A stretch of DNA of 64,000 bases, taken from Cordylochernes scorpioides (lineage: Eukaryota; Arthropoda; Arachnida; Pseudoscorpiones; Chernetidae). The position numbers and the translations under genes are program-made. Where the stretch lies: the NCBI GenBank assembly GCA_030710605.1, contig CP092877.1, forward strand, positions 5,691,730 through 5,755,729. The letters run 5' to 3'. Positions within the stretch are counted from its first letter, which is position 1, and every line of letters starts with the position of its first letter. Under the pieces are notes generated by a model that was given only the letters and a program-made list of their open reading frames with translations, ran no database searches and was not told the origin of the DNA. This document shows positions 4,988 to 55,082 of the stretch, piece after piece.

Positions 4988-7115
4988 CAGTCTACTCTCG
5001 TTATAACGCCACCATCCGGATTTTGCAAAAAAGCGGCGTAAGGCGAGGGTGGCGTTGTATCGAACACGTTTAAAATGTGAAATTTAAAGATACAATAAAT
5101 TATTTATAACAATTACTAATAAAAACTTATACTTTAAGTCAATATATAGAATGCAAAACCGGCATTAATTAATTAATATGATAAATTGAAAGCATTAATT
5201 TATAATTTATTCATAAAAAAGTAATTACATTTTCTTGAAGAAGTCTGTGATCACAACTTGTCTTTTCTCTCCCTCACTTATGGCATAGACACGGCGTAAC
5301 AAATCCGCAGATAGATTGACGTCGTCAGATGTTGCTCTCTTGGAGTGCTCAAGAAACAACAAAACTGTCTCAGCAGCTGTTCTGGCTTCCCTTAACGATG
5401 GTAGGCGCTGGGTCACTGTTGTATCATCATCCTCGCCAAGTTCTTCTTTCGCTGTAACAGTGGACACTAGCAAATTGTCATCTGTTAGCTTCATTTCCGC
5501 CTCCTGGGAATCATCAACCAGTTGAAACTCCCTTTCAGTCATCAAATTCTCTGGTGTAATAGCGAAGATGTCGCGAATGCGATCAAGCAGATTTCCATAA
5601 TTAAGAGGCTCAACTGCAGCAGTAGAAGTGAAGCGAATGCCTGTGTGATTCCAGCAGTTGCTGATGGAATCAGGGCTCACAGAACCCCAAGCCATTTTAC
5701 AATAGCGCACAGCGTAATCCAGACGTAATTCTGTGGGTAGATGGGCATCCGCCAATTCCACCATTTTCTGGAGTTGAAGCTTGCGATATTGAGCCTTGAA
5801 ACTTTTGATGATGTCACTATCCAGTGGTTGCAGACTAGCAGTCATATTTGGTGGAAGGAAGTGTACCTTTATGTTGCTGAGACCATCATTAGGGACGCAG
5901 TGAGACGTAGCGTTATCTAGCAACAGTAGGATACGACGTCCTTCAGAGACAAGCTGCTTGTTGAACTGCAGTAGCCATTCTTGAAAGATGCTAGAGGTCA
6001 TCCATGCTTTGCTGTTAGATGTGTAAGTGCAGTAGAAGTGTGGACTAAAGTTTCTGAAGCATCGAGGCTTTGCCGATTTTCCAATAATCAGCAATCGCCG
6101 CTTGTCTGTTCCAGTAGAGTTGCAGCACAGTAGAACAGTGATTCGCTGCTTCATCTTTTTGACACCACGGCAGTTTTCATGTTTGTGAGCAAGTGTTCGG
6201 TCAGGAATGAGCTGAAAAAATAATCCTTTTTCGTCTGCATTGTATATTTTGGCTGGGTCATATCCGGAGTTCGCCAGCATACTGTTCAAATTTGTAAGGT
6301 GTTCATCAATGATAGCTGGAGAAATCGATGCGCCTTCCCCACAGAGCCGTCGATGCGAAATATGGAATCTCCCTTTAAATCGCTGCAGCCAACCACTGCT
6401 GTACGCGAAATTTTCTGGTACGGCCAACTGCTCGCCAAGTTTTTTTGCCTTTTCTCTTAGGAGGTCATCAGTAATAATAATATTATTGGCACGCTTTTGA
6501 GTAAACCAGTTGAAGAGAGCGTCTTCCAAGTCACTAAATTTTCCGACTCTTTGTCTCTTTGAAGAACCAACAGTATAATTTTCCTACTTCTCAGCCTGAG
6601 TGAGAATATCACGGACAGTTGTTCGTGGAAGTGAGAAACGCTCTCCAATCTCATTCTTCGACATCGTAGGGTTATTTCTTGCCAACTGGCATATCTCCTT
6701 CTTCTTTTCAATGGTGATCGACTCACGTTTACGCTTTTGGGAACTCATGATACGACAATAAAGTTGTTGTGTTGACGTTAGCAAAGGATTAAACGACTGT
6801 GTATGTCCCAGGCACAAGCAGGAAAAAGGTCTGCTGACTGTTTACACAATCTGTTATCTGTTGTGTCAATAGCAAACAAAGTCCGGCGCCGTAGGCGTAA
6901 AAAATGCAGACAGGAAAGAGGGGGGGACGTTGTGAGAGGCGTTATAACGAGTGGTTTTTGCTACTTGGGACACAAAAATCAGCGGCGGAAGGCGAACAGC
7001 GAGGGAGTGGCGTTATATCGAGAAAAATACATTGATGTCGATTGGGACAAAACGAAAAAGCGGCGTAAGGCGAGGGTGGCGTTATATCGAGTGGCGTTAT
7101 AACGAGAGTAGACTG
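4988..7115 (-). mobile_element. Tigger/pogo-type DNA transposon, near complete
   Basis: The element begins CAGTCTACTCTCGTTATAAC at 4988 and ends with its inverse at 7115, flanked by TA on both sides (4986-4987 and 7116-7117), as expected for Tc1/mariner/pogo insertions. The ends carry a second layer of repeats: a GCGGCGTAAGGCGAGGGTGG motif lies near both termini (about 5031-5050 and 7060-7079), and a diverged copy lies near 6979-7005. A long transposase frame lies on the minus strand inside. At about 2.1 kb it is close to full length for a Tigger element. It looks recently active apart from one stop codon in the transposase. Confidence 0.92.
5225..6748 (-). pseudogene. Tigger/pogo transposase with a single in-frame stop
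   Basis: The protein would cut and paste the surrounding transposon in the nucleus. From the ATG at 6748 the frame runs 54 codons to a TAG at 6584-6586, then continues in the same frame to 5225, about 506 residues plus the stop. Residues 5-54 form a pogo-like helix-turn-helix; about 74-130 form a CENP-B/Tc5-type DNA-binding domain ending in SSGWLQRFKGR. The DDE core follows: first Asp in NADEKG (about residue 172), second in LLLLDNATSH (about 278), third in LQPLDSD (about 310), 31 residues after the second. All three catalytic residues are present. The C-terminal 120 residues are acidic, as in Tigger proteins. No frameshift was found, so the TAG is the only lesion seen. Confidence 0.9.
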
Positions 7116-9160: not shown

Positions 9161-9564
9161 AATGATGACGTCAAAATAAAAACAGCAAAAGAGTGGGATG
9201 GAGACAGCTACGAGGCAAAGCTTCAAAGGAAATGACCGCCGCCCACACAGGGCCCCTCCCGGGGTTTCATAGGCAAATAAAATGAGACCCGCCCGGGGTC
9301 AACAGCAGGGTCAGCTCAGAGAGTGTGATACAGTGTGTCCATCTAAGCAGGCCGCTTCTGGCTCTCTTTCCATGTCTCGGTGTTAGGCATCCAGGTTTGT
9401 GTCATGGCCTCACCTCTATCCAGTGGGTTGTCTCCGACCCGCTTGGTGCTAACATTTAGCCCTGCCTCAGCTTCTTGCTGTCCACATGCGAAAAGAAGTA
9501 ACCACTTTCGCCCTACGACTGCCAGTATATTCACACGTCGGCTTACTCGGGGTTACAGCATATA
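9161..9564. other. GC-richer island with a CRE-type palindrome
   Basis: This stretch is clearly more GC-rich than its flanks and contains TGACGTCA (9166-9173), the consensus cAMP-response/ATF site, followed by GC-rich blocks near 9240-9300. Short open frames on both strands do not resemble known proteins. It could be a regulatory element or an old repeat; no promoter was identified. Confidence 0.3.
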
Positions 9565-10389
9565 TGTCATAATTTGTATATAATTGTATGCCCCCCGACC
9601 CACTATGCATGTACAATGTATGATTTTCAAAGATTTAATAAAGAATAAGGTAACTGGAGGAAAGGAAGTGGCAACAAGACATAGGAAGCAGGCTAAAAGC
9701 GGGCACAAGTATAAATAACTTGTACAGTCAATACTTCCTGGCAAGCCCGGACGTATCTGGTATCCGCAGAAGTTATATTAGTATAGAGACGCCCAATATT
9801 TCCGGACAGGACCGGACGTATTTGATAACGCGGAAGTAAATAGAGTCGAACACACCCGATACTTCCTGACCAGGCCGGGCGTAACTAACACCAAAGAAAG
9901 CCGCCGGTCCAATTAGAAAGCCTCCCCTAAATAGGTCAACCAATAGAAAAACGGACACGTTCCATCCTTCGACCAATGGGAAGGAAGACAACTCGTGGTG
10001 TTAAATCGAAAGGCAAGAATTGTCAGTAGTGATTTCGCTTCCAACAAGGTGACATCGGCTCTGGACCTCTCTCCCTCTGCTCATCCCGTAGCTAAGTACA
10101 ATCACCACCATGTGATCAGATAATTGACAATCAAAACTCGCTCCGCCTTCTCAAGCTTTCTTTCCTCCAACCCAGTTGCCTTTATTTTCAACCCCATCAC
10201 GTGTCCTGATTATTCCTAACTGTGTGCTTCACTTGCCACTCAACGACTGCGTTTCAACCAATCCTCACCATTCAAATCGAACAACAAGAAATTCCGCAAC
10301 GATATTGTCACAGAACGGTTAAGTCGACAGGATTCTACAACAGTGTAATACATCAAATATTGCAGTGTAATAACTTCGGATATATTACA
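9565..10389 (+). repeat. 5' LTR of the gypsy element
   Basis: Begins TGTCATAATT and ends ATATTACA. It matches 14373-15198 with about two differences noticed by eye: a C/T change in AAAACTCGCT versus AAAACTTGCT, and a one-base indel near TTTTCAACCCC. Such similarity implies recent insertion. Confidence 0.92.
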
Positions 10390-10410
10390 TAGAGTCGACA
10401 GGATAAAGAG

Positions 10411-10935
10411 ATGGAATTTAATCAGGATCCCATAGGCGTAAAAACGGACAACCCTACGAAAGAAAGAGGGAAGAAACTGGCAACGAGCGAAGCGACAAAA
10501 CACACCCTGGCGACAATAATTTTGCAGCTGACCGCCGCACTTCAAGGAGCAAGGTCCACTCAACTACAAACGACGTTCCGTAGCGCCACCCCCGGAGCAG
10601 CCCACACCCCCCGCCGACCGAAAGGCGAGATGAGCGCGGCAGCCGACGCACGTGCCACCACCCCAGGCAAGTGTCACCGAGACCGGACACCGACCACCGA
10701 GGAGTCATCCACCGCCATGCCGTACCCGTATCACAGCACACCCCGACGCCCAGGTGCATGGAATGCACCTCTTCCGCCGTCCAACTGCAAGTTCTGCGGC
10801 GCGAGGCACTGGCACAACGAATGCCGACATCGACCAGTCCCGACGGCCCACGAAAAAGTGCGGACAGTGCAAACAGTCCCACAACAACCAAGTCAAGCCA
10901 GAGACCCCCCAGCCGAGCAGCCCTTTCGAGACTAA
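10411..10935 (+). CDS. gag: Gag-like protein of the gypsy element
   Basis: An open frame of 174 codons begins 21 bases after the 5' LTR, the usual place for gag. Gag forms the cytoplasmic particle that packages the element RNA. The N-terminal half is basic and rich in Thr and Ala. Near residues 129-141 is a zinc knuckle of the form C-x2-C-x3-H-x4-C (CKFCGARHWHNEC), as in some arthropod retrotransposon gags. It is short for a full gag, so the capsid part may be lost. No frameshift occurs within it. Overlapping open frames in the other phases reflect the GC-rich composition here and are not genes. Confidence 0.65.
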   Translation: MEFNQDPIGVKTDNPTKERGKKLATSEATKHTLATIILQLTAALQGARSTQLQTTFRSATPGAAHTPRRPKGEMSAAADARATTPGKCHRDRTPTTEESSTAMPYPYHSTPRRPGAWNAPLPPSNCKFCGARHWHNECRHRPVPTAHEKVRTVQTVPQQPSQARDPPAEQPFRD

Positions 10936-11483
10936 GGTAGGCACCCCCCTATGGCGTCAAGAATTGACTTTGAACTCTTATCTAACCCTACCTACCCCTT
11001 TACCATGTATCTAAACATGTACCAAATGAATGCAAGCACGGGCTAGACCAAAACCTTTCCCAAAGGGCTCGTACAGCACACAAAGCTTTCACACATGGAA
11101 ACCCTTGCCTGCATTCATTGCCCAAACCCCAAATATTTACATGCCACCATTCTAATCTCACACCACGCAACTTTTCATGCCCACAACATATAAAGCCACC
11201 ACGACTTCAACCTACAATTCCAATAATGCCCAAAAAAGTGTCCGTACACCGACACAGCTCACCCACTTACCACGCAAATGTACCTCACAACATACACGCA
11301 CCCATACGTCACCACGCAACAAACACGTACAACCCGCACAACAAACGCAACACGCGCGCCAAAAGACAACAACAACAAACAAGCGCATGCACAACCGTTA
11401 AGAATAATACAATCATCCCGTCTACACAAAACATAGAAAAAATTCACGCCACCAAACAACCACACAATCGAAAAACATTGCGA
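10936..11483 (+). other. A/C-rich filler between gag and RNase H
   Basis: Protease and most of the reverse transcriptase are expected here, but the stretch is poor in G on the plus strand and its translations are low-complexity (His, Thr, Asn, Pro, Lys). No DSG protease motif or YxDD box is seen. It may be biased degenerate sequence or inserted DNA. Confidence 0.55.
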
Positions 11484-12871
11484 TCTTTCCTAAAAGCTGT
11501 GAACGCCTATAAAGAGTTCATTCCGGACCACGCCCGCTTGCGGACGCCACTTGTCAACCTTCTAAAAAGGATGTCGTGTGGGTCTGGAGTGACGAATGCC
11601 AGAAAGCGTTCACTAACCTGAAAGAAAGCCTTACCACACACCCCACATTATACCTTTACCAAGAAGGTCTGCCATGCCAGGTGTACTGTAACACCTCAAC
11701 ATTCGGCATTGCAGGCATTCTTAAACAAGTCTACCCTGATGGGAAGACATACCCAGTTCAACATTTCAGCCGCTCTCTGCGTGGTCACGAGCGAAATTAT
11801 TCAGACTTGGAACTACAATGCCTAGCCATTGTGGAAAGTGTGGATAACTTCCGCGCCTGTCTAATGGGCAGAAAGTTTACAATACTTTCTGACCATCCTG
11901 CATTGCAGTGGTTGAAAGAGATCAAAGCCCCGTCAGGCAGATTGTTTCGATGGAGGTTAAGACTGTCAAGATACGAATATGAGGTCCGTAGCATAAATGG
12001 AGTACAACAATATGAAACGGGCGTTGTAACTCGTATCCCATTTTGTGGCTTTCTATATGCGCCACTCATAAAGAGCCAACAGGCTTCTCCACCGGGAAAA
12101 TCTCGCGTGACTATGGATCACAATAAACTGCGCACCGTCTCCCGAAAAGGAGTACTTAAAACTATAGTCCCAAGTTCACTTACAACCAGACTTCTTAAGT
12201 CTGTACACACACAACACCACCACCCAAACATCTCCAAGATGACGAGACTCATCTCGTCACAATATTATTGGCAGAACATGACACAAGACATCGCAAAACA
12301 GGTAAAAACCTGCCCCACCTGCCGATTCGCTAGAAGAATCGATGAATACAACCAACCTTCACGTAAAAATACCGACACAGGCCCCAAAGCAAAACAAAAT
12401 TCGTACATAAAGCACAGCGTACACACAACACAAACAATGCCAAAATTACACCACCCACGTCAGAGAAACGACCACACATCTCAACCTAAATCAATTACCA
12501 CCGACATATCGCTAATAAAACCATTAACGATCAAACAGGAGAACTGCGAACCTACCAATCATTTAAATTCTACAATTAATAAGATTCGAACAAATATTTC
12601 AGAGTCCCCATTTACAAAAATATGGGAGAATATGGGGCAATACCCTATCTTTCATCTGATTTTCATCCTTTGTTTGTTAGTTCTACCATACAAATGTATC
12701 CCAATTTTATTCATTAATTATTTGTTTATCTATACCATGCCCGCTCATAAAATTTTCGAACTACAAGAGGCAGTTTTTAATTTTGGACAGGCATTTATAA
12801 AACTTCTCATAATTTTAGGAACCATTTTTGCAGAAAATCTAAATAAACTCCGAGGAGATAGAAGTAACTGA
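11484..12871 (+). pseudogene. pol: Broken pol: RT tail, RNase H and integrase zinc finger
   Basis: The frame starts with the end of the RT thumb (LRSFLKAVNAYKEF), shifts frame at an A-run near 11563-11570, then continues as an open frame at 11576-12871. RNase H follows: the first catalytic Asp is replaced by Asn (VYCNTS), while Glu in DLELQ and Asp in LSDHPAL remain. An integrase-type HHCC zinc finger follows, with YYWQNM and CPTC at residues 246-249. The integrase DDE core is absent; A/C-rich low-complexity sequence takes its place, and the last 100 residues contain two strongly hydrophobic segments of unknown origin. RNase H and integrase cannot be active. Confidence 0.85.
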
Positions 12872-13554
12872 AAGATGACCAACCAATGTCGGAGAAGTCA
12901 CACTCCAAAAACAAGATGCAAATAGCACACAAAATCAATTAGGCGGACAGGAAACGTAGTTCCCCCCACTTCCGGATCCAATTACGTGCAAATAGAGAGG
13001 AAGTCTTGCTGCCCCCACGTTCCATGTCCGGTTTCTAATTACCATCCCTCGACCAGCAGCTAAATTGAGGTCAACTGGGAACCTCTCTATGCCACCGATT
13101 TTGGATTCCAATTCAAGCCTGCGCATCGACTTTTACAATGTCAATCAAATCGACTGTCATTCGAAAATCAAACAAGGTACACGCACACACATTTCTTACA
13201 CAACAGACTTCTAACATTTTCCACAACACACACAAAGACAAAAAAATTATAGGGCATAATTGAGCAATTAAAACATTTATAGGGCATGTAGATATACAAA
13301 AGGGTCCAAACCAATACACCTTATTTTTCATATTAATCATTTTCATTATTTTCTCTCAATTAAAATTTAAATATATAATCAATTTATCAATTTATTCAAC
13401 TTATTATCACTTTTAATCATTAATTATCATTTTTTTTTACCAATTAGTTTATATTATCATAATTTCAAATCAACGAGAACTCATTGGTTTTCTTTTAAAA
13501 TTGGATATTATATTTTATTTTGATTTACAAAAACATTCTTTTTTTTTTATTTCT
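12872..13554. other. Non-coding 3' part of the gypsy element
   Basis: No gene is seen between the end of pol and the tandem repeats. The sequence passes from mixed composition to T-rich. Confidence 0.5.
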
Positions 13555-14125
13555 TTTTTCCACCATGCAACAAAACATTTTTCCTTTTTCTCACCATGCA
13601 ACCAAACATTTACTTTGATGTCTTCCAACTTTTATATTATTTTTTGATTTCTTCCAACTTTTTATTTTACTTTGATTTCTTCAAAAGACCTAATAAAAAT
13701 CCCTCGATTTCCATTCCCAATTTCGAGCAAGAATATGGTTAGGCATTTTTCCTTTTTTTTTTCACCATGCATCAAAGCATTTTTTTTTTCCAACATGCAA
13801 CCAAGCATTCACTTTGATTTCTTCCAACTTTTTATTTTTATTTTTATTTTTTGATTTCTCAAAAGACCTAATAAAAATCCCTCGATTTCCATTCCCAATT
13901 TCGAGCAGAAATATAATTAGGCATTTCTTTTTACCATGCAACAAGCACTTTTCTTTTTCACCATGCAACAAAACATTTTTTTTCCTCACCATGCAACCAA
14001 ACCTTTACTTTGATTTCGTCCAACTTTTTATTTTTATATTATTTTTGATTTCTCAAAAGCCCTAATAGAACTCCCTCGATTTTTTTTCCAATTTCGAGTA
14101 GAAATTAGTTAGGCGCATTTTCTTT
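13555..14125 (+). repeat. Three tandem copies of a 170-195 bp T-rich unit
   Basis: Each unit runs CACCATGCA..., TTTGATTTCTTCCAACTTTT, then CCCTCGATTT, then CAATTTCGAG and a GTTAGGCATTT-like end. Copies begin near 13560, 13761 and 13935 and are diverged by indels in T-runs. They lie inside the gypsy element just before the 3' LTR. Confidence 0.8.
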
Positions 14126-14372
14126 TCTTTTTAATCCACTATGTACCATAGCATTCATTTTGATTTCTTACAATTAAAAAATTTTTTGATTTCTATTAAT
14201 TATACTCAACCTATATCATCAACCCCATTCTATTTTACTTCTTATATCGCCACCAATGCTTGTATATAGACTCTCAATACCCACAACTAATTTTCCCACA
14301 AAATTATTTTTCACCTTACAGAATTCTCTCAGGCTAACCCCTTCTTGAATTCTTCACATGTAGGGGCGCATC

Positions 14373-15198
14373 TGTCATAATTTGTATATAATTGTATGCC
14401 CCCCGACCCACTATGCATGTACAATGTATGATTTTCAAAGATTTAATAAAGAATAAGGTAACTGGAGGAAAGGAAGTGGCAACAAGACATAGGAAGCAGG
14501 CTAAAAGCGGGCACAAGTATAAATAACTTGTACAGTCAATACTTCCTGGCAAGCCCGGACGTATCTGGTATCCGCAGAAGTTATATTAGTATAGAGACGC
14601 CCAATATTTCCGGACAGGACCGGACGTATTTGATAACGCGGAAGTAAATAGAGTCGAACACACCCGATACTTCCTGACCAGGCCGGGCGTAACTAACACC
14701 AAAGAAAGCCGCCGGTCCAATTAGAAAGCCTCCCCTAAATAGGTCAACCAATAGAAAAACGGACACGTTCCATCCTTCGACCAATGGGAAGGAAGACAAC
14801 TCGTGGTGTTAAATCGAAAGGCAAGAATTGTCAGTAGTGATTTCGCTTCCAACAAGGTGACATCGGCTCTGGACCTCTCTCCCTCTGCTCATCCCGTAGC
14901 TAAGTACAATCACCACCATGTGATCAGATAATTGACAATCAAAACTTGCTCCGCCTTCTCAAGCTTTCTTTCCTCCAACCCAGTTGCCTTTATTTTCAAA
15001 CCCCATCACGTGTCCTGATTATTCCTAACTGTGTGCTTCACTTGCCACTCAACGACTGCGTTTCAACCAATCCTCACCATTCAAATCGAACAACAAGAAA
15101 TTCCGCAACGATATTGTCACAGAACGGTTAAGTCGACAGGATTCTACAACAGTGTAATACATCAAATATTGCAGTGTAATAACTTCGGATATATTACA
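14373..15198 (+). repeat. 3' LTR of the gypsy element
   Basis: Begins TGTCATAATT, ends ATATTACA, and is nearly identical to 9565-10389. Just before it the sequence AGGGGCG is only a weak polypurine tract. Confidence 0.92.
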
Positions 15199-16519
15199 TA
15201 TATACATATGTATATATGTATATTACGTTTCGCATATCAGAGTATCCAAGCGTTATGAACGAGATCTATCAAAATAGTATAGAGTAATCTGCTAGAGAGA
15301 TCCCACTATAATGTTGATATAATTTTGACTTATACAAAATAATGGACATTCCAAATAAGGGTGTCGTTAGTTGAATAATTGTTTTATGCCTGGTGATTCA
15401 ATAATAAAGTATATTAACGGTTCTTTCCAATATTTATTGCATTCAATTATGATCTGAACAATATTTTCTAAATTAAAAAAAATTGATGTTGATTTTTCAG
15501 AAAGAAATTTAAACGAAATATTTAAGTGAAATTAATGGTGTAAGTGCATATCATATCGATAAATATCAGACGAATGAAACCACTTAATGTCTGGAATATT
15601 CTATGCGGATAATTTTAAATAACTATTTCCTGTTCCATTTAGTAATGATAGTTTTGCAGGAGATTTAGTGGAATGTTTTCATATAAATTATAAGACAAAC
15701 GCGAGTTATACTTATTTAAAATTCGAAATAATTTAACCTTTTTTTTTCTTTTTAAAAACAAAGTTAATTGCTACTGTCTTTGCTGCAAGGCGAAATATAT
15801 TGGAAACCACTGGTGATCCAGACCCTCTATTAGACATTATCATATAATGGAGAGAATAGAAGAAACAAAATTTTGAAAGAGAATTAATAAAAACGGTAAA
15901 TTGTTTTTTGTTTAAACTTTGAATAATGTTTTTTTGCGCTGCTCGACGTAAGTCAGGTTTTATAAAATTATTCTACAAACGCAGTTTAAAAATAAGGTTG
16001 AGTAAAATATAGTGACATCCTAAATAAATATATTTTTTAATTAAGATATTCCTCATCAATATATAGAGACACATTTCTCTTATTATAATATGGCTAATGA
16101 GATTTCAATATGATAAATATTCATTATACTAATGTAGAATATTTTGGAGTTACACCAGTGATTTTATTAGGGTGAATTGTGGTATCAACAATATATCATA
16201 GTGCATTAAAGGAAATATTCACTTTAGTGAAATATTTTAAAAGAAAGACAAGTTCCTATTTACAATGTTCTATACGTGAACCAAAGCCTAAATCCTACCA
16301 GCAATCACTAGAATTGATGATAAAATCTACAGTTACGTTTGTAACTAACTATCTCTAAAAATAGCGATCAGACCTTTTAACGATTTAATAATAAAAAGAA
16401 TGATGTTAAATGTGTGGGATAATGGTATCAATAGTTATCACCTCATAATAAATTACTCCGCAATAAGCATCGTTAGAATCCGTCTAGCTCTGTAGTCCTC
16501 TATGTAGCGTTAGACAAGG
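15199..16519. other. AT-rich spacer, no gene seen
   Basis: Only short AT-rich open frames. No repeat boundaries were recognised. Confidence 0.5.
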
Positions 16520-28614: not shown

Positions 28615-28920
28615 ATAATAATTTATTTTAAAATATTATAACACAAGGTAATAAGACCAAATCCAAATATATAAATAGTGTGTGACGTTTCGGTAACAGC
28701 GCTGTTACCATCTTCAGACAAAAGTACTGAATGTAATAAATAGTGTGTGACGTTTCGGTAACAGCGTTGTTACCATCTTTTCAGACAAAAGTACTGAATC
28801 TCATTCATTTAAAGTAATTTTGTTTGAAGATGGTAACAACGCTGTTACCGAAATATCACACACTAATTATTTATTTGGATTTGGTCTTATTACCCTGTGT
28901 TTATAATCTATAATCCAAAT
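28615..28920. repeat. Foldback repeat with three hammerhead-like cores
   Basis: Outer arms share AATAAGACCAAATCCAAAT and its inverse. Inside are two direct copies of GTGTGACGTTTCGGTAACAG... (28676 and 28744) and one inverted copy (28821-28862). Each has an 18-nt palindromic stem and carries a hammerhead-like core, intact only in the first. A further decayed copy lies at 33870-33965. Confidence 0.85.
28681..28720 (-). ncRNA. Minimal hammerhead ribozyme candidate
   Basis: On the minus strand: TGT (stem I), CTGAAGA (fits CTGANGA), an unpaired T, the hairpin GGTAACA-GCGC-TGTTACC (stem II), GAAA, CG, TC, ACA (stem I). Every conserved core base of a type I hammerhead is present. Stem III is only the palindrome ACGU without loop, so cleavage would need two molecules pairing there. 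Stem I has three pairs before a mismatch. Penelope-like elements carry comparable minimal hammerheads; activity is uncertain. Confidence 0.45.
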
Positions 28921-30107
28921 TGTGCTTTATCAATTTAAATATTATAGTTGATATTTATTTCTATAGATGACGAAAACGATCAGCAACTTTCAGGTACACC
29001 ATCAGTGGCTACCTTGTTCTTAATTAGGATATAGATTGAAGTTGTTTTTCACAAATTTGGAGTTTCATGTAGTCGTATCCTCACACTCAGCTTTGGTATC
29101 CTCCATGCTATGGGATTCATTCAAACAATTCAACACTTTTAGTAATTGGATAAGTTTGTAGATTATCTATATATAACAAATTTCCTAAATGTATTGAATG
29201 GTTACTTGTTGGGAATAAAAATATCCACAAATACAGAAAGAGTTCAACTTATATGGTAACATTTAAACACACTTTACTCGAAAACATTTTTAGAAAAGTA
29301 AAAATATTCGATAGTTAAAGCTATTCAAAGCGAATTTTCATGTTTACAAATAAAACGAATTCCTACATTCCTAATGAGTTAGGAGAATATTGTGAGGGCT
29401 TGGCTCATCAGTGGTGGAATCTCGGTTCGTAAATACCTAAATCATAATCTCTTTTCTAATCTTCAAATATGAGATAGAAATCTACATCATTAGCCGTCTG
29501 TATTGTAAGGTGTAATAAACAAATTTTATATTTTTCTGACAAAAATATTTATATCTTTTCGATTTAAATATATAACAATATTTTATTCTATGTTCAAAGG
29601 CGACACTTCTACATTTATAAGCCGAAACGATTTGATGTTGGAATAGTTCGAAAAAATTATAAAATTATAAAAATAACTTCGATTTTTACCATCTGGCTTG
29701 TAGTGAACATGCCTTTCGACTCTATTGAAGCTATAAAAGAAATACCTGGGCATACACATTATATAATTTACATGTGAAAAAAGGAGGTTTTTGATTAGAG
29801 TGGTGTGTCTTCTTAGTATATATAATTATGATACTTTCTTATGGAATGAGCCAATTGAATATTCTCTTTTAAATAGCAGAATATTGCCGAAAATCAACAT
29901 TTTGCTAATCATGAAAAGTTAAACACGTATTGGTTCTTGTTGCAAGTTGTTCCTCAAAAACCTATACATAGAGGGTCCTTGAGAAATAAAGGAAAGTGTA
30001 TAATGTGGAAAATCAACATCCAGTTTATATTTATCAACATAGTCGAGGTAACGTTCAGTTGGAAGAGATAACCTCATACAGAGGGATGACATTTTTATTT
30101 TAATATG
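28921..30107. other. AT-rich spacer, no gene seen
   Basis: Nothing coding. 28975-29015 carries AGCAACTTTCAGG...CCATCAGTGG, a fragment of the GGCATCTCC families, and 29395-29430 a GGGCTTGGCTCATCAGTGG block like that at 32930. Confidence 0.45.
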
Positions 30108-34251: not shown

Positions 34252-34520
34252 GGCATATCCTGACCAGGAGAACATGTGATTTACAGAAGGCAGAGCGTCA
34301 TCTGGTGGAACAGAAATCAACTAAGCATTGATTTAGCCTGTTCCCTGATATTTGGCCAACCCAATTTCTTGACAAATCAAGAAAAGCCATCCACGAACGC
34401 GTTTCGCGCTTTTGGCGCTCGTCAGCGTGGAGTAGACTGTACCATTGCGACCAAAAATATTTTTAGTCCCAGAGGCTTCTTGAAAAACCAAGAAATAGGT
34501 ATTTAAGGCCAAACTTGCGT
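34252..34520. repeat. GGCATCTCC-family element carrying a hammerhead
   Basis: Starts GGCATATCCTGACCAGGAG and shares GGAACAGAAATC...TTGATTTAGCCTGTT, TATTTGGCCAACCCAATTTC and CCAAGAAATAGGTATTTAAGG with 44790-44939 and 52103-52280. Only this copy keeps the stretch 34385-34450 with the hammerhead intact. The family has inverted ends in the 44790 copy, so it resembles a MITE that has acquired or lost a ribozyme segment. Confidence 0.7.
34390..34431 (-). ncRNA. Type I hammerhead ribozyme
   Basis: On the minus strand: stem I TCCACG, CTGACGA, stem II GCGC-CAAAA-GCGC, GAAA, stem III palindrome CGCG, TT, stem I CGTGGA. All six stem I pairs and four stem II pairs are Watson-Crick, and every core base fits. 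The cleavage site is GUU (H17 = U), which is allowed but usually slower than GUC. The sequence is unrelated to the array hammerhead at 47465 outside the core, so it is an independent ribozyme family. A decayed copy is at 19650-19712; the copies at 44790 and 52103 lack it. Confidence 0.85.
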
Positions 34521-36684: not shown

Positions 36685-36890
36685 GTTGGCTTAAGGCGAG
36701 TAGAATAAGGAAAACAAAAGATTATTTACATAATGTACAAAAGTTTAGAGCCGGCCATTGGGATACAACAACAATGAGTTTTTATTGGGGAAGAGTGACC
36801 TCTGCGGTCGATTTAACAGAGAATTTGGATATATGAAATATAATTTTAAATAGAAAAATATTTTAATATAACATATATATTCTGGTCCTA
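36685..36890 (+). repeat. Dispersed repeat matching the left flank of the 320-bp array
   Basis: Aligns with 46903-47327: both share CTTAAGGCGAGTAGAAT, GAGCCGGCCA, a CAACAACAAT block, GGCGGTCGATTT-type text and ATATAACATATATAT at the end. Here no array follows, so this copy shows what the site may look like without it. Confidence 0.7.
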
Positions 36891-41345: not shown

Positions 41346-42017
41346 TGTGTTCGTTCTCTTTATTAATTTGATATGAAACTTGAAGAAAATTATATATATA
41401 TATATATATAGGAATATATTATAAAGATATCTTTCTCTATTCTTTCAGATTCTCATCAGATCTATTGCCACACATTTCATTAATATTCACGTTTTTATTA
41501 TAAAAACAACTAAAAATGTACCAAAAAAATAAACCACATTAAAATTTCAAATATTTGAAGATACAATCGCCAAAATGTTATCCATCTAAAGCATCACTAT
41601 GTCACTTAAGATATCTGTGTCGTTAACTCTTTCAATATACAGAATATCCTATCCATGTTTCCACAGTCGTATGCTATGATCTGGTAGTNNNNNNNNNNNN
41701 NNNNNNNNNNNNNNNNNNNNNNNNNNNNNNNNNNNNNNNNNNNNNNNNNNNNNNNNNNNNNNNNNNNNNNNNNNNNNNNNNNNNNNNNGGTGATGGAAAT
41801 GGCTCAAATAGAAAAAATAAACTGTAAAGTAGTGCCCATATTTTGTTAACGTGGAGTGGAATTCTAGCAAGATACAATAAACACCATATAGAAGGGAAAT
41901 ATCCATTATAAAAGAGACTTTGACATGGAAATAATTACAATAGAGAAGTAGAAGGATCCTCAGAACCAGTTCGACGAATTAAAAGAAGCCATGGATCATT
42001 AGCTGAAAATATACATA
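41346..42017. other. AT-rich spacer including the gap
   Basis: No gene; a (TA)n run lies at 41391-41410. The gap is listed separately. Confidence 0.5.
41689..41788. other. Assembly gap of exactly 100 N
   Basis: The fixed length of 100 suggests a scaffold gap of unknown true size. Distances and orientation across it are not guaranteed. Confidence 0.99.
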
Positions 42018-44602: not shown

Positions 44603-44789
44603 TGCGCCATTTATTTTTCTACGTAGCAATATAATAAGTGATACAATAAACCTGTTCGTAACAAGACCTAGAAGTTAGTGTTATAAGAATGTCCTAAAAG
44701 TTCGTGTTTTTCTTAAAACGTTGCTTTTCTTATCACTAAGCGATTAACATTATTACGGCGAATACATAATAATGCATAAAAATAAATAA

Positions 44790-44939
44790 GGCATCTCCTG
44801 ACCACGAGCACATGTGCTTTTAGATGGCAGAACGCCATCTAGTGGAGCAAAAATAAACTAAACGTTTATTTAGCTTGTTCCGTGATATTTGGCCAACCCA
44901 ATTTCTTGATAAATCAAGTGCTCGTGGTCAGGAGATGCC
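44790..44939. mobile_element. GGCATCTCC-family MITE, 150 bp
   Basis: Perfect 22-bp inverted ends (44790-44811, GGCATCTCCTGACCACGAGC..., and 44918-44939); the similarity continues outward into AAATAAAG-type text. The interior has AACGCCATCTAGTGG and TATTTGGCCAACCCAATTTC, shared with 34252 and 52103. It is non-coding and lacks the hammerhead. A TTTTTTTTCTATTGTTTTTT tail follows at about 44975, also seen next to the 8606 fragment. Confidence 0.75.
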
Positions 44940-45000
44940 TTCTTTATTTTTAATATCAACACCTGACCCATCTATTTTTTTTCTATTGTTTTTTCATAAT

Positions 45001-46310: not shown

Positions 46311-46902
46311 TATAATACAGGTACAATGGCTAAAAAGAATATATGCAAATAACTATTTACATATTTGCGGAATAAATTATGAAAATGAGATATAAAAATA
46401 AATAACCTTATATTCTTTCAAATATTGGGGAAAATGGTGTTTAATCTAACTACTGAAGTATGGGTTTCAATGGACAACACATATCAGCTTGTTTAGGTAA
46501 CATTATTTGATCATAGCGCATTTTATCTTTTAAATAAAATAAATCACAGCTAATAGGAAACAAAGCGGGCTAGCTCCTGATACGAACACAGCTTCACAAA
46601 TGTGGAACACGTTAATTATTGAAAATTCGACTTCCTTCTTGATGTAAATAGGGATAATCAATCGATTTATATCGCAATGGTATTTTTAAAAACACAGCAG
46701 GTCGATCATAGAGAGAAAATATTTTAGAATATTATTGAGATATAGAATTATTACTTGCTGACGCTGATTGATTTGAGTTCGTAAGCATTTTGGTGTTGGT
46801 TTGTAGTCATTATATTCATAAAATATAATTAACACAGTTTTATTTACTTTTCTTTAATTGTGCTAAGAAGTATAGAATATATATTTCGAGAAAGTACTAC
46901 TT
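46311..46902. other. AT-rich spacer, no gene seen
   Basis: Nothing recognised. Confidence 0.45.
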
Positions 46903-47327
46903 GACTTAAGGCGAGTAGAATATTAAAAAAATAAAATACGTATTTACATAATTACAAAATATTTGAGCCGGCCAACTGGAAACGGAAATATATTTACGGG
47001 GCTGCTAACCAAAATAGATGATTTTTGAGCCCGCATAAATCGGAATATAAACAAAGCACTATGACCAGGCTGGGGAGGCTAGGGATCTCCGTCAGGGAAG
47101 AGGCAGGTTAGGCCGGATTGGGTCCGCGGAGGTCAGGAGGCAGGAAGAGGGCGGGAGACCAACTGGAACGTTCCAATTTTTGTATATGTACCGCCGAACA
47201 AGCGAAACAACAACAATAGGTTTATATAGGGAAAGACGCGACTTCTGGCGGTCGATTTTACAGAGTAGTTTGTTCTGGAAATTATAATTTTGAAATAAAA
47301 TATAATTTTTATATAACATATATATAT
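46903..47327 (+). repeat. Dispersed repeat abutting the 320-bp array
   Basis: Matches 36685-36890 at both ends; about 190 bp of GC-rich sequence (47040-47180) is extra here. The last shared text, ATATAACATATATAT, is where the array begins. Confidence 0.7.
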
Positions 47328-47464
47328 ATAAGAGACAAGGGTCGCCTCTCCCGTCAAAATAGACGTCTAAAACCAGACGCCATCTATTGACCGTCGCCGC
47401 AACTAGCGGCCTCGGGTCGGTGACAAAGCCACAACACCAGCTTTGGCAAACTGAAAAGCGTCCA

Positions 47465-47508
47465 CCTAGAGACCATGGTTTCGGGCTAATGGCCCTCGTC
47501 AGTCTAGG
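47465..47508 (-). ncRNA. Type I hammerhead ribozyme, array copy 1
   Basis: Minus strand, 5' to 3': stem I CCTAGA; core CTGACGA; stem II GGGC-CATTA-GCCC; GAAA; stem III palindrome CCATGG; UC; stem I TCTAGG. Six stem I and four stem II pairs are perfect. Cleavage is expected 3' of GUC, between 47471 and 47470. With only two or three stem III pairs in one molecule, dimer formation through CCATGG is likely. Confidence 0.92.
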
Positions 47509-47784
47509 GCGGACTTTATTCCATGAGATCCACACGGGATCTAATGGAATCTTGACAATCTGCCAAAGAGGTGTTTAGCTGGCAAAGTGGCTGGGCCATA
47601 TCTATGGCTAAAATATAGATGGAAATTTTGCCGGGAGGAAATTGATCTTAAGAGACAAGGGTCGCCTCTCCCGTCAAAATAGACGTCTAAAACCAGACGC
47701 CATCTATTGACCGTCGCCGCAACTAGCGGCCTCGGGTCGGTGACAAAGCCACAACACCAGCTTTGGCAAACTGAAAAGCGTCCA

Positions 47785-47828
47785 CCTAGAGACCATGGTT
47801 TCGGGCTAATGGCCCTCGTCAGTCTAGG
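47785..47828 (-). ncRNA. Hammerhead ribozyme, array copy 2
   Basis: Same bases as copy 1, 320 bp further on. Confidence 0.92.
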
Positions 47829-48104
47829 GCGGACTTTATTCCATGAGATCCACACGGGATCTAATGGAATCTTGACAATCTGCCAAAGAGGTGTTTAGCT
47901 GGCAAAGTGGCTGGGCCATATCTATGGCTAAAATATAGATGGAAATTTTGCCGGGAGGAAATTGATCTTAAGAGACAAGGGTCGCCTCTCCCGTCAAAAT
48001 AGACGTCTAAAACCAGACGCCATCTATTGACCGTCGCCGCAACTAGCGGCCTCGGGTCGGTGACAAAGCCACAACACCAGCTTTGGCAAACTGAAAAGCG
48101 TCCA

Positions 48105-48148
48105 CCTAGAGACCATGGTTTCGGGCTAATGGCCCTCGTCAGTCTAGG
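48105..48148 (-). ncRNA. Hammerhead ribozyme, array copy 3
   Basis: Same bases as copy 1. Confidence 0.92.
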
Positions 48149-48424
48149 GCGGACTTTATTCCATGAGATCCACACGGGATCTAATGGAATCTTGACAATC
48201 TGCCAAAGAGGTGTTTAGCTGGCAAAGTGGCTGGGCCATATCTATGGCTAAAATATAGATGGAAATTTTGCCGGGAGGAAATTGATCTTAAGAGACAAGG
48301 GTCGCCTCTCCCGTCAAAATAGACGTCTAAAACCAGACGCCATCTATTGACCGTCGCCGCAACTAGCGGCCTCGGGTCGGTGACAAAGCCACAACACCAG
48401 CTTTGGCAAACTGAAAAGCGTCCA

Positions 48425-48468
48425 CCTAGAGACCATGGTTTCGGGCTAATGGCCCTCGTCAGTCTAGG
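48425..48468 (-). ncRNA. Hammerhead ribozyme, array copy 4
   Basis: Same bases as copy 1. Confidence 0.92.
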
Positions 48469-48744
48469 GCGGACTTTATTCCATGAGATCCACACGGGAT
48501 CTAATGGAATCTTGACAATCTGCCAAAGAGGTGTTTAGCTGGCAAAGTGGCTGGGCCATATCTATGGCTAAAATATAGATGGAAATTTTGCCGGGAGGAA
48601 ATTGATCTTAAGAGACAAGGGTCGCCTCTCCCGTCAAAATAGACGTCTAAAACCAGACGCCATCTATTGACCGTCGCCGCAACTAGCGGCCTCGGGTCGG
48701 TGACAAAGCCACAACACCAGCTTTGGCAAACTGAAAAGCGTCCA

Positions 48745-48788
48745 CCTAGAGACCATGGTTTCGGGCTAATGGCCCTCGTCAGTCTAGG
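48745..48788 (-). ncRNA. Hammerhead ribozyme, array copy 5
   Basis: Same bases as copy 1. Confidence 0.92.
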
Positions 48789-49065
48789 GCGGACTTTATT
48801 CCATGAGATCCACACGGGATCTAATGGAATCTTGACAATCTGCCAAAGAGGTGTTTAGCTGGCAAAGTGGCTGGGCCATATCTATGGCTAAAATATAGAT
48901 GGAAATTTTGCCGGGAGGAAATTGATCTTAAGAGACAAGGGTCGCCTCTCCCGTCAAAAATAGACGTCTAAAACCAGACGCCATCTATTGACCGTCGCCG
49001 CAACTAGCGGCCTCGGGTCGGTGACAAAGCCACAACACCAGCTTTGGCAAACTGAAAAGCGTCCA

Positions 49066-49109
49066 CCTAGAGACCATGGTTTCGGGCTAATGGCCCTCGT
49101 CAGTCTAGG
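49066..49109 (-). ncRNA. Hammerhead ribozyme, array copy 6
   Basis: Same bases as copy 1; spaced 321 bp from copy 5 because of the extra A near 48956. Confidence 0.92.
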
Positions 49110-49385
49110 GCGGACTTTATTCCATGAGATCCACACGGGATCTAATGGAATCTTGACAATCTGCCAAAGAGGTGTTTAGCTGGCAAAGTGGCTGGGCCAT
49201 ATCTATGGCTAAAATATAGATGGAAATTTTGCCGGGAGGAAATTGATCTTAAGAGACAAGGGTCGCCTCTCCCGTCAAAATAGACGTCTAAAACCAGACG
49301 CCATCTATTGACCGTCGCCGCAACTAGCGGCCTCGGGTCGGTGACAAAGCCACAACACCAGCTTTGGCAAACTGAAAAGCGTCCA

Positions 49386-49429
49386 CCTAGAGACCATGGT
49401 TTCGGGCTAATGGCCCTCGTCAGTCTAGG
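49386..49429 (-). ncRNA. Hammerhead ribozyme, array copy 7
   Basis: Same bases as copy 1. Confidence 0.92.
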
Positions 49430-49705
49430 GCGGACTTTATTCCATGAGATCCACACGGGATCTAATGGAATCTTGACAATCTGCCAAAGAGGTGTTTAGC
49501 TGGCAAAGTGGCTGGGCCATATCTATGGCTAAAATATAGATGGAAATTTTGCCGGGAGGAAATTGATCTTAAGAGACAAGGGTCGCCTCTCCCGTCAAAA
49601 TAGACGTCTAAAACCAGACGCCATCTATTGACCGTCGCCGCAACTAGCGGCCTCGGGTCGGTGACAAAGCCACAACACCAGCTTTGGCAAACTGAAAAGC
49701 GTCCA

Positions 49706-49749
49706 CCTAGAGACCATGGTTTCGGGCTAATGGCCCTCGTCAGTCTAGG
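49706..49749 (-). ncRNA. Hammerhead ribozyme, array copy 8
   Basis: Last minus-strand copy, 67 bp before the inversion point. Confidence 0.92.
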
Positions 49750-49951
49750 GCGGACTTTATTCCATGAGATCCACACGGGATCTAATGGAATCTTGACAAT
49801 CTGCCAAAGAGGTGTTAATTTCCTCCCGGCAAAATTTCCATCTATATTTTAGCCATAGATATGGCCCAGCCACTTTGCCAGCTAAACACCTCTTTGGCAG
49901 ATTGTCAAGATTCCATTAGATCCCGTGTGGATCTCATGGAATAAAGTCCGC

Positions 49952-49995
49952 CCTAGACTGACGAGGGCCATTAGCCCGAAACCATGGTCTCTAGG
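49952..49995 (+). ncRNA. Hammerhead ribozyme, array copy 9
   Basis: First plus-strand copy after the inversion: CCTAGA, CTGACGA, GGGCCATTAGCCC, GAAA, CCATGG, TC, TCTAGG. Cleavage expected between 49989 and 49990. Confidence 0.92.
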
Positions 49996-50270
49996 TGGAC
50001 GCTTTTCAGTTTGCCAAAGCTGGTGTTGTGGCTTTGTCACCGACCCGAGGCCGCTAGTTGCGGCGACGGTCAATAGATGGCGTCTGGTTTTAGACGTCTA
50101 TTTTGACGGGAGAGGCGACCCTTGTCTCTTAAGATCAATTTCCTCCCGGCAAAATTTCCATCTATATTTTAGCCATAGATATGGCCCAGCCACTTTGCCA
50201 GCTAAACACCTCTTTGGCAGATTGTCAAGATTCCATTAGATCCCGTGTGGATCTCATGAATAAAGTCCGC

Positions 50271-50314
50271 CCTAGACTGACGAGGGCCATTAGCCCGAAA
50301 CCATGGTCTCTAGG
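50271..50314 (+). ncRNA. Hammerhead ribozyme, array copy 10
   Basis: Same bases as copy 9; 319 bp away because of one missing G near 50259, which lies outside the ribozyme. Confidence 0.92.
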
Positions 50315-50590
50315 TGGACGCTTTTCAGTTTGCCAAAGCTGGTGTTGTGGCTTTGTCACCGACCCGAGGCCGCTAGTTGCGGCGACGGTCAATAGATGGC
50401 GTCTGGTTTTAGACGTCTATTTTGACGGGAGAGGCGACCCTTGTCTCTTAAGATCAATTTCCTCCCGGCAAAATTTCCATCTATATTTTAGCCATAGATA
50501 TGGCCCAGCCACTTTGCCAGCTAAACACCTCTTTGGCAGATTGTCAAGATTCCATTAGATCCCGTGTGGATCTCATGGAATAAAGTCCGC

Positions 50591-50634
50591 CCTAGACTGA
50601 CGAGGGCCATTAGCCCGAAACCATGGTCTCTAGG
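50591..50634 (+). ncRNA. Hammerhead ribozyme, array copy 11
   Basis: Same bases as copy 9. Confidence 0.92.
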
Positions 50635-50910
50635 TGGACGCTTTTCAGTTTGCCAAAGCTGGTGTTGTGGCTTTGTCACCGACCCGAGGCCGCTAGTTGC
50701 GGCGACGGTCAATAGATGGCGTCTGGTTTTAGACGTCTATTTTGACGGGAGAGGCGACCCTTGTCTCTTAAGATCAATTTCCTCCCGGCAAAATTTCCAT
50801 CTATATTTTAGCCATAGATATGGCCCAGCCACTTTGCCAGCTAAACACCTCTTTGGCAGATTGTCAAGATTCCATTAGATCCCGTGTGGATCTCATGGAA
50901 TAAAGTCCGC

Positions 50911-50954
50911 CCTAGACTGACGAGGGCCATTAGCCCGAAACCATGGTCTCTAGG
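50911..50954 (+). ncRNA. Hammerhead ribozyme, array copy 12
   Basis: Same bases as copy 9. Confidence 0.92.
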
Positions 50955-51230
50955 TGGACGCTTTTCAGTTTGCCAAAGCTGGTGTTGTGGCTTTGTCACC
51001 GACCCGAGGCCGCTAGTTGCGGCGACGGTCAATAGATGGCGTCTGGTTTTAGACGTCTATTTTGACGGGAGAGGCGACCCTTGTCTCTTAAGATCAATTT
51101 CCTCCCGGCAAAATTTCCATCTATATTTTAGCCATAGATATGGCCCAGCCACTTTGCCAGCTAAACACCTCTTTGGCAGATTGTCAAGATTCCATTAGAT
51201 CCCGTGTGGATCTCATGGAATAAAGTCCGC

Positions 51231-51274
51231 CCTAGACTGACGAGGGCCATTAGCCCGAAACCATGGTCTCTAGG
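51231..51274 (+). ncRNA. Hammerhead ribozyme, array copy 13
   Basis: Same bases as copy 9. Confidence 0.92.
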
Positions 51275-51550
51275 TGGACGCTTTTCAGTTTGCCAAAGCT
51301 GGTGTTGTGGCTTTGTCACCGACCCGAGGCCGCTAGTTGCGGCGACGGTCAATAGATGGCGTCTGGTTTTAGACGTCTATTTTGACGGGAGAGGCGACCC
51401 TTGTCTCTTAAGATCAATTTCCTCCCGGCAAAATTTCCATCTATATTTTAGCCATAGATATGGCCCAGCCACTTTGCCAGCTAAACACCTCTTTGGCAGA
51501 TTGTCAAGATTCCATTAGATCCCGTGTGGATCTCATGGAATAAAGTCCGC

Positions 51551-51594
51551 CCTAGACTGACGAGGGCCATTAGCCCGAAACCATGGTCTCTAGG
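51551..51594 (+). ncRNA. Hammerhead ribozyme, array copy 14
   Basis: Same bases as copy 9. Confidence 0.92.
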
Positions 51595-51870
51595 TGGACG
51601 CTTTTCAGTTTGCCAAAGCTGGTGTTGTGGCTTTGTCACCGACCCGAGGCCGCTAGTTGCGGCGACGGTCAATAGATGGCGTCTGGTTTTAGACGTCTAT
51701 TTTGACGGGAGAGGCGACCCTTGTCTCTTAAGATCAATTTCCTCCCGGCAAAATTTCCATCTATATTTTAGCCATAGATATGGCCCAGCCACTTTGCCAG
51801 CTAAACACCTCTTTGGCAGATTGTCAAGATTCCATTAGATCCCGTGTGGATCTCATGGAATAAAGTCCGC

Positions 51871-51914
51871 CCTAGACTGACGAGGGCCATTAGCCCGAAA
51901 CCATGGTCTCTAGG
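51871..51914 (+). ncRNA. Hammerhead ribozyme, array copy 15
   Basis: Last plus-strand copy; its unit is cut off at the (TA)n tract at about 52087. Confidence 0.92.
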
Positions 51915-52102
51915 TGGACGCTTTTCAGTTTGCCAAAGCTGGTGTTGTGGCTTTGTCACCGACCCGAGGCCGCTAGTTGCGGCGACGGTCAATAGATGGC
52001 GTCTGGTTTTAGACGTCTATTTTGACGGGAGAGGCGACCCTTGTCTCTTAAGATCAATTTCCTCCCGGCAAAATTTCCATCTATATATATATATATATAT
52101 AT

Positions 52103-52312
52103 TAAAAATGGTGGAACAGAAATCCACTATTCATTGATTTAATCTGTTACCTGATATTTGGCCAACCCAATTTCTTGATAGATCAAGAAATATTTTAGAC
52201 AAATATTTTTTGATCCCAGTGGTTTCCCGAAAAACCAAGAAATAGGTATTTAAGGCCAAACTTGCGTAAATACGCTTAACACATGGAAAAAAACAATAGA
52301 AAAAAAATATAT
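52103..52312. repeat. GGCATCTCC-family relic without hammerhead
   Basis: GGTGGAACAGAAATC, TATTTGGCCAACCCAATTTC and CCAAGAAATAGGTATTTAAGG match 34252-34520, but the ribozyme stretch is replaced by CAAATATTTTTTGATCCC. GGAAAAAAACAATAG at 52284 is the inverse of the tail seen at 44975. A (TA)(GA) microsatellite follows. Confidence 0.65.
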
Positions 52313-54564: not shown

Positions 54565-55082
54565 ACATTTAGGGAATACTCGGGTATTCCACTTAGATAC
54601 ACCCCAACCAACCAGAGAGATTACTCGAATACTACATCGCCAACCAACCGGGTAGAAATACTCGGGTATTCCACGGAGCTGTAACCAACAAACCTGACAT
54701 AATACTCGAGTATTCCATCTCGACACACCCAATCAATCAGACAGTATACCCGTATATACCATGTACTACACACATTCAACTAGACAGAATACCCGGGTAT
54801 TCCACGGAGCTGCATCCAACAACCAGACAGAATACCCGGCTATTCCACGAAGCTGCATCCAACAACCAGACAGAATACCCGGGTATTCCATGGAGCTGCA
54901 TCCAACAACCAGACAGAATACCCGGGTATTCCATGGAGCTGCATCCAACAACCAGACAGAATACCCGGGTATTCCATGGAGCTGCATCCAACAACCAGAC
55001 AGAATACCCGGGTATTCCACGGAGCTGCATCCAACAACCAGACAGAATACCCGGGTATTCCACGGCGTTATGCCCAAGCAAT
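54565..55082. repeat. 43-bp minisatellite
   Basis: Seven regular units start at 54782, 54825, 54868, 54911, 54954, 54997 and 55040, each AGACAGAATACCCGGGTATT followed by CCATGGAGCTGCATCCAACA-type text. The 14-nt palindrome AATACCCGGGTATT lies in most units. From 54565 to 54780 are irregular, older copies. Since 43 is not a multiple of three, all frames are open; the 60-137 codon frames are not genes. Confidence 0.95.

Follow-up and report, generated by a model that had tools for sequence, protein, structure and literature searches.

Among described elements, those closest to the subject of this report are the metazoan retrozymes without long terminal repeats (LTRs), which appear in the available part of PMC7229834 as tandem units of 170-400 nt, dispersed in their genomes, with a type I hammerhead ribozyme of very short stem III, a GC content just below 50 % and a predicted circular RNA that pairs with itself. 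Unit size, tandem arrangement, dispersal, hammerhead, GC content and predicted self-pairing are shared by a 320-bp unit that fills 4758 bp (positions 47329-52086) of a 64-kb stretch of DNA, hereafter the window (C15:5691730-5755729), from the pseudoscorpion Cordylochernes scorpioides. By virtue of its unit length, type I hammerhead with a tiny stem III, tandem units, dispersal and self-paired predicted circle, the element is a non-autonomous retrozyme of the metazoan type, and a new family of this known class; a sequence-only reading of the window had filed it in the same way. The feature peculiar to the C. scorpioides retrozyme, by comparison with those of PMC7229834, is its insertion as two head-to-head arms with fixed starts, and the terms inverted, head-to-head, orientation and microsatellite are absent from the main text of that paper as far as it was available. 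Circles in the same source are mostly predicted with the ribozyme free, whereas the circle predicted here holds the ribozyme in an inactive monomer fold.

Two further systems invite comparison. The satellite hammerheads of newt and axolotl have a similar unit of approximately 330 bp, and dimeric action, predicted here, is reported for those of axolotl (PMC7229834, in the part available). They differ from the present element in host, which is here an arachnid, and in stem III, which here comprises two pairs with a palindromic tetraloop, as in invertebrates (same source). Insertions of Penelope-like elements, as described in the accessible parts of PMC11167929 and PMC3846280, likewise lie head to head in simple, AT-rich targets with an offset of approximately 30-40 nt on one arm. 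In contrast to these, the retrozyme unit has no reverse transcriptase or endonuclease gene, its 320-nt template appears to have been copied for several laps, and, of two start sites, A and B, each arm uses a different one in 31 of 32 cases. Reverse transcription of retrozyme circles by enzymes of long interspersed nuclear elements (LINEs) or of Penelope-like elements has been proposed without direct evidence (PMC7229834), and retrozymes may rely on Penelope-like elements (PMC8969392), to judge from the portions of these papers at hand.

A literature search that included the available parts of PMC7229834, PMC7761336, PMC8490949, PMC11722881 and PMC8969392 returned neither head-to-head retrozymes nor an arachnid example. 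The insertion rule described below is thus unreported as far as searched, an earlier mention being possible. The element adds an arachnid, a pseudoscorpion, to the hosts of retrozymes, and the rule defines the layout of priming along the template, such that a test of a helper enzyme would require no more than a purified protein and a 320-nt RNA.

Architecture of the window array and its hammerheads

The array in the window consists of two opposite arms, of 2488 bp (left) and 2270 bp (right), that meet at an inversion at 49816/49817, with the 5′ sides of their RNA sense pointing to the middle. The coordinates of the 320-bp repeat, its motif and the cleavage step at 49989/49990 are all as first noted; the description as a tandem array stands for the 320-bp units and fails for the whole, which is not one head-to-tail array. 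With RNA numbering that begins after the cut, the features are as follows.

47318..47330: left TA tract, 2 nt in common with the unit
47329..49816, minus strand: left arm, 7.77 laps, RNA sense on the minus strand, start at RNA nt 142 (site A)
47465..47508, minus strand: hammerhead copy 1
47785..47828, minus strand: hammerhead copy 2
48105..48148, minus strand: hammerhead copy 3
48425..48468, minus strand: hammerhead copy 4
48745..48788, minus strand: hammerhead copy 5
49066..49109, minus strand: hammerhead copy 6
49386..49429, minus strand: hammerhead copy 7
49706..49749, minus strand: hammerhead copy 8
49816..49817: head-to-head junction, without microhomology and without a notable palindrome (4-bp arms)
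49817..52086, plus strand: right arm, 7.10 laps, RNA sense on the plus strand, start at RNA nt 178 (site B)
49952..49995, plus strand: hammerhead copy 9, predicted cleavage 49989/49990
50271..50314, plus strand: hammerhead copy 10
50591..50634, plus strand: hammerhead copy 11
50911..50954, plus strand: hammerhead copy 12
51231..51274, plus strand: hammerhead copy 13
51551..51594, plus strand: hammerhead copy 14
51871..51914, plus strand: hammerhead copy 15
52082..52102: right TA tract, 5 nt in common with the unit

Measured against a perfectly tandem unit, the array displays 0 substitutions over 4758 bp and two 1-base indels, an insertion in the unit at 48924-49244 and a deletion in the unit at 50137-50455, which bears out the near-absence of mutations that had been remarked upon. 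The near-identity had been read as a sign of recent amplification; a single insertion event copied from one template accounts better for the likeness of the copies than does amplification in steps. No direct repeat immediately flanks the array. Fold-back self-priming at the junction was considered and found no support, as only 4-bp inverted arms straddle 49816/49817 and 149 of 300 random positions have longer ones. Both flanks of the array are themselves repetitive: the left (46901-47325) belongs, with 36686-36880, to a dispersed repeat with pieces 79-83 % identical, and the right (52109-52272) is a hammerhead-free copy of the repeat family that contains the second hammerhead of the window, described below.

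Each hammerhead copy is an exact 44-nt sequence made up of a 6-bp stem I, the core CUGACGA, a 4-bp stem II with a 5-nt loop, GAAA, the palindrome ACCAUGGU and a predicted cleavage site after GUC, with a stem III of two pairs closed by a palindromic tetraloop. It occurs unchanged 15 times, as the sequence-only reading had it, with eight copies on the minus strand (47465 to 49706) and seven on the plus strand (49952 to 51871); being identical by descent, these count as a single piece of evidence. Across the 64 kb, a strict descriptor returned the 15 array copies, one other hammerhead and nothing else; among shuffled controls it hit 1 of 300 made from the remainder of the window and none of 3000 made from the unit. 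A chance origin of the motif is very unlikely. Covariance-model matches of other kinds were set aside: none of those to MIR8007, MIR8675 and mir-3688 reaches its gathering score, and all span the inverted junction and arise from a long hairpin, and six to c4-a1b1 reach 12.2 bits, far under the gathering score of 46.7.

With regard to folding, the predicted monomer optimum (-23.6 kcal/mol) is not the active fold, which lies 7.3 kcal/mol higher at -16.3. An unconstrained cofold of two copies gains 7.2 kcal/mol over two monomers and takes the form of a double hammerhead with an 8-bp stem III; the core, GAA and the nucleotide preceding the cut are unpaired, and the outer stem I is in a slightly shifted register. 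The circle predicted for the 320-nt unit (GC 49.7 %) has an energy of -122 kcal/mol, compared with a shuffle mean of -87.4 (z -6.4; reached by 0 of 100 shuffles), and its optimum, with the structure read by eye, keeps the ribozyme in the inactive monomer fold. Within the circle, nt 142 and nt 178 have predicted unpaired probabilities of 0.93 and 0.98, and nt 173, adjoining the stretch shared with the target, is paired (0.02).

The second hammerhead, solitary and on the minus strand at 34390-34431, has a stem III formed by the palindrome ACGCGU, shorter than that of the array; it scores 26.8 bits against Rfam Hammerhead_HH9, below the gathering score of 52, and its two-copy cofold is not a double hammerhead. 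It sits in a dispersed repeat with relatives at 52109-52272 and 44762-44994 that contain no hammerhead, and a further relative elsewhere in the genome (L080:2262-2501; 85 % over 240 bp) possesses its own hammerhead and adjoins a GIY-YIG gene piece. No third hammerhead type emerged from a relaxed scan of the window. At 28671-28940 lie short tandem and inverted hairpins with CTGAAGA and GAAACGTC that look hammerhead-like by eye and fail the descriptor.

The longest open reading frame (ORF) in perfect tandem units is 117 aa, or 141 aa where one base is missing, with no Pfam search having been made of the unit; by ORF length, the unit does not contain the reverse transcriptase and GIY-YIG ORF of Penelope-like elements. 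Relatives of the 117-aa ORF comprise six predicted C. scorpioides proteins (BLASTP identity 51-100 % over 30-81 % of the query), which look like gene models laid over repeat copies, and a coding function was rejected. A 27-mer of the unit gave 0 matches to IMG/VR contigs and 0 to GTDB contigs.

Insertions across the genome and their start sites

The genome-wide count of the unit that had been suggested as a check was carried out on the C. scorpioides assembly (2.62 Gb, 24 contigs) and gave at least 182 matches, with the best 40 of 303 candidates scored. From the matches listed, 40 loci were grouped by hand, 39 of which were read with approximately 1 kb of flank in addition to the window; for two of them (L040 and L047), where an internal jump and an older remnant had misled the automatic pairing, the grouping was corrected manually. 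Flanking sequence identifies three duplicate pairs (L029/L030, L034/L039 and L037/L038), leaving 37 independent, dispersed loci. Including duplicates, the 40 loci contain 114 hammerheads at a tolerance of 3 mismatches, of which 104 are exact. The number of laps varies, with several at some loci and approximately one or less per arm at others.

Two young arms are present at 32 of the 37 independent loci, and at all 32 they lie head to head. Automatic pairing, with older remnants included, gave 39 head-to-head pairs and one tail-to-tail pair out of 40, the exception being the L047 remnant. The outer ends follow a rule: 31 of the 32 insertions pair an end at site A (nt 141-152) with one at site B (nt 174-181), the remaining locus (L009) using B twice, a split with a probability of 7.7e-9 if each arm chose freely at 1/2. 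Within these sites the ends cluster at nt 146 (22 arms), nt 142 (5 arms) and nt 178 (31 arms). Inner ends are instead spread around the circle, without clustering (Rayleigh p 0.15), and 2 of 64 are 3 nt or less from the cut, against an expectation of 1.2. The arms pass the ligated cut site, being longer than the distance to the cut, in 56 of 64 cases, which fits a circular or multimeric template. In the 21 of 32 insertions picked for length, the arms of one insertion share variants, with 19 differences in total against a mean of 31 for re-paired arms (a total as low in 0 of 5000 re-pairings).

The targets are predominantly TA tracts, with at least 6 nt on both sides at 28 of the 40 loci, on one side at seven and on neither at five. 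Both ends of the window array lie in such tracts, two of the ten in the window that reach 12 nt, the other eight making up 0.2 % of it. Outside TA, the starts are nt 149/181 (L013), 148/174 (L045) and 148 (L015); as these lie within a few nucleotides of the others, the RNA, and not a match to TA, seems to set the starts. At L045 a 7-bp target duplication, TAATGTC, is legible, whilst duplications inside TA tracts are unreadable. The target of L012 is a dispersed repeat (best 40 of 625 candidates scored), for which 21 empty sites with an uninterrupted TA tract were counted (20 repeat copies and L009 looked at; among the 20 copies, one is L012 itself and two carry other sequence at the site). In another copy of this repeat, the same tract holds an independent insertion, L021, with different inner ends. 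Older, diverged retrozyme pieces lie near the young insertions at L011, L017, L025, L027, L036, L044 and L047, as if DNA beside an old copy had been hit again.

Proposed insertion mechanism, helper enzyme and alternatives

The explanation that best accommodates the whole, and one that we hold with good confidence, is a retrozyme inserted by two-strand priming at A and B on circular or multimeric RNA, probably by a Penelope-like enzyme. Transcripts of tandem units would be cut by their hammerheads, probably acting in pairs via the palindrome ACCAUGGU that they share, and the 320-nt monomers would be circularised by a ligase of the host, both cleavage and circles being deduced from the DNA. The target, usually a TA tract, would be opened, and each insertion would be one event of target-primed reverse transcription in which, we infer, both DNA strands prime on the sense RNA, circular or multimeric, at fixed sites 26-37 nt apart, one strand at A and the other at B. 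Each complementary DNA would run for a variable distance (7-8 laps in the window), and the joining of the ends would leave two head-to-head arms. The insertions may further amount to a genome-wide record of how the retrozyme is mobilised, with AT-rich DNA opened by a Penelope-like enzyme, both strands primed by it on a single circle made by the ribozyme, each from its own fixed start, and the circle copied lap after lap. In this fuller version, to which we give even chances, the ribozyme would need a partner copy, so that the single-unit circle would be protected and multimeric transcripts cut.

For the helper we lean towards the enzyme of a Penelope-like element. The retrozyme loci match three traits of Penelope-type integration, namely head-to-head arms, an AT-rich target and a one-sided tail of 30-40 nt. 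In the available part of PMC11167929, the protein of a lizard Penelope-like element cleaves and extends both strands, prefers AT-rich DNA and uses two internal start sites, the spacing of which equals a tail of 30-40 bp; in that of PMC3846280, rotifer copies with inverted pLTRs are most commonly head to head, have a 31-bp tail at one end and favour simple AT-rich targets. Candidate helpers are present in the assembly, where a GIY-YIG search gave at least 146 matches (best 150 of 17015 candidates scored), among which the 11 pairs of neighbours within 10 kb are all head to head. Domains RVT_1, GIY-YIG or both were matched by 7 of 10 ORFs scanned; a single 539-aa ORF at L083 carries both, the Penelope-like combination, and L084 has the two in separate ORFs. 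The head-to-head arms of these loci are 99.7 % and 98.7 % identical, respectively.

A number of observations weigh against parts of this explanation. The outer ends of L083 and L084 have neither the offset nor TA tracts, which leaves the link between Penelope-like enzyme and retrozyme unclosed, and the element at L083:1051-4821 is a near-perfect 3.8-kb palindrome, which sets it apart from the retrozyme arms. The lizard enzyme begins synthesis at points without homology between RNA and target, and its start sites are the same for both strands (PMC11167929), and inverted rotifer copies have been attributed to self-priming on an antisense template (PMC3846280), as stated in the sections available. 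Nucleotides common to tract and unit, as many as 5 nt at B and 2 nt at A, make the precise start uncertain at TA loci, an overlap of at least 2 nt being found at 14.5 % of random breakpoints. Five of the 37 independent loci are one-armed, L015 from site A and L017, L034, L041 and L042 from site B, and reading the best-scoring candidates favours young copies. As to the RNA, the covariance-model check proposed by the sequence-only reading went the other way: Rfam hammerhead families do not match the unit at gathering score, nor with E up to 10 on 1701 bases or on 91 bases. The antisense circle is as strong as the sense one (-120.1 kcal/mol, z -6.3, 0 of 100 shuffles). The dimer reading is countered by the statement that the majority of type I hammerheads in invertebrates cleave efficiently as monomers (PMC7229834 and PMC7761336, in part).

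Two-strand priming could also be the work of a LINE-type enzyme in place of a Penelope-like one, an alternative that we consider doubtful. Twin priming by LINEs yields the same orientation of arms. The available text of PMC7229834 leaves LINEs open as helpers, and the missing offset and TA tracts at L083 and L084 count in their favour. On the retrozyme side, by contrast, the arm starts lie inside the unit, no poly-A tail is evident at them in the flanks inspected (no search having been made for LINE genes), and the offset of approximately 32 nt, confined to one arm, is as described for the tails of Penelope-like insertions. Within two-strand priming, the template may have been an uncut, multimeric linear RNA and not a circle, which appears improbable: passage of the arms through the cut site is compatible with either template, but an arm exceeding 7 laps would call for an RNA with 8 or more sense units, and whilst at least 2 exact hammerheads lie on one strand at 14 of the 40 loci, at least 7 do so only in the window and L022.

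The loci across the genome raise the odds of two-strand priming and lower those of the last two alternatives. An ordinary satellite, homogenised and inverted by DNA rearrangement, would account for the identical tandem units of the window; it is largely refuted, and now highly improbable, given the same layout at 32 of 32 independent two-arm sites, with outer ends fixed and inner ends scattered, and the empty sites for L012. Misassembly of the inverted junction has an equally slight probability, for although identical repeats are hard to assemble and a 100-N gap exists at 41689-41788, many loci with the same layout are short (many arms <500 bp), and the similarity between the two flanks in the window is limited to matches of 77 bp and 25 bp, approximately 2.3-2.4 kb left of the array.

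Other features of the window

Beyond the array, the window contains a Tigger-type transposase (5225-6583) that matches a C. scorpioides protein at 96 % over the whole query, and an LTR element (9562-15200) whose direct repeats are 99.6 % identical over 831 aligned bases, with RNase H and integrase zinc-binding domains between them. A fold-back repeat at 44777-44952 has inverted ends 94.7 % identical over 38 bp, and a 43-bp tandem repeat of 9.5 copies occupies 54657-55065.

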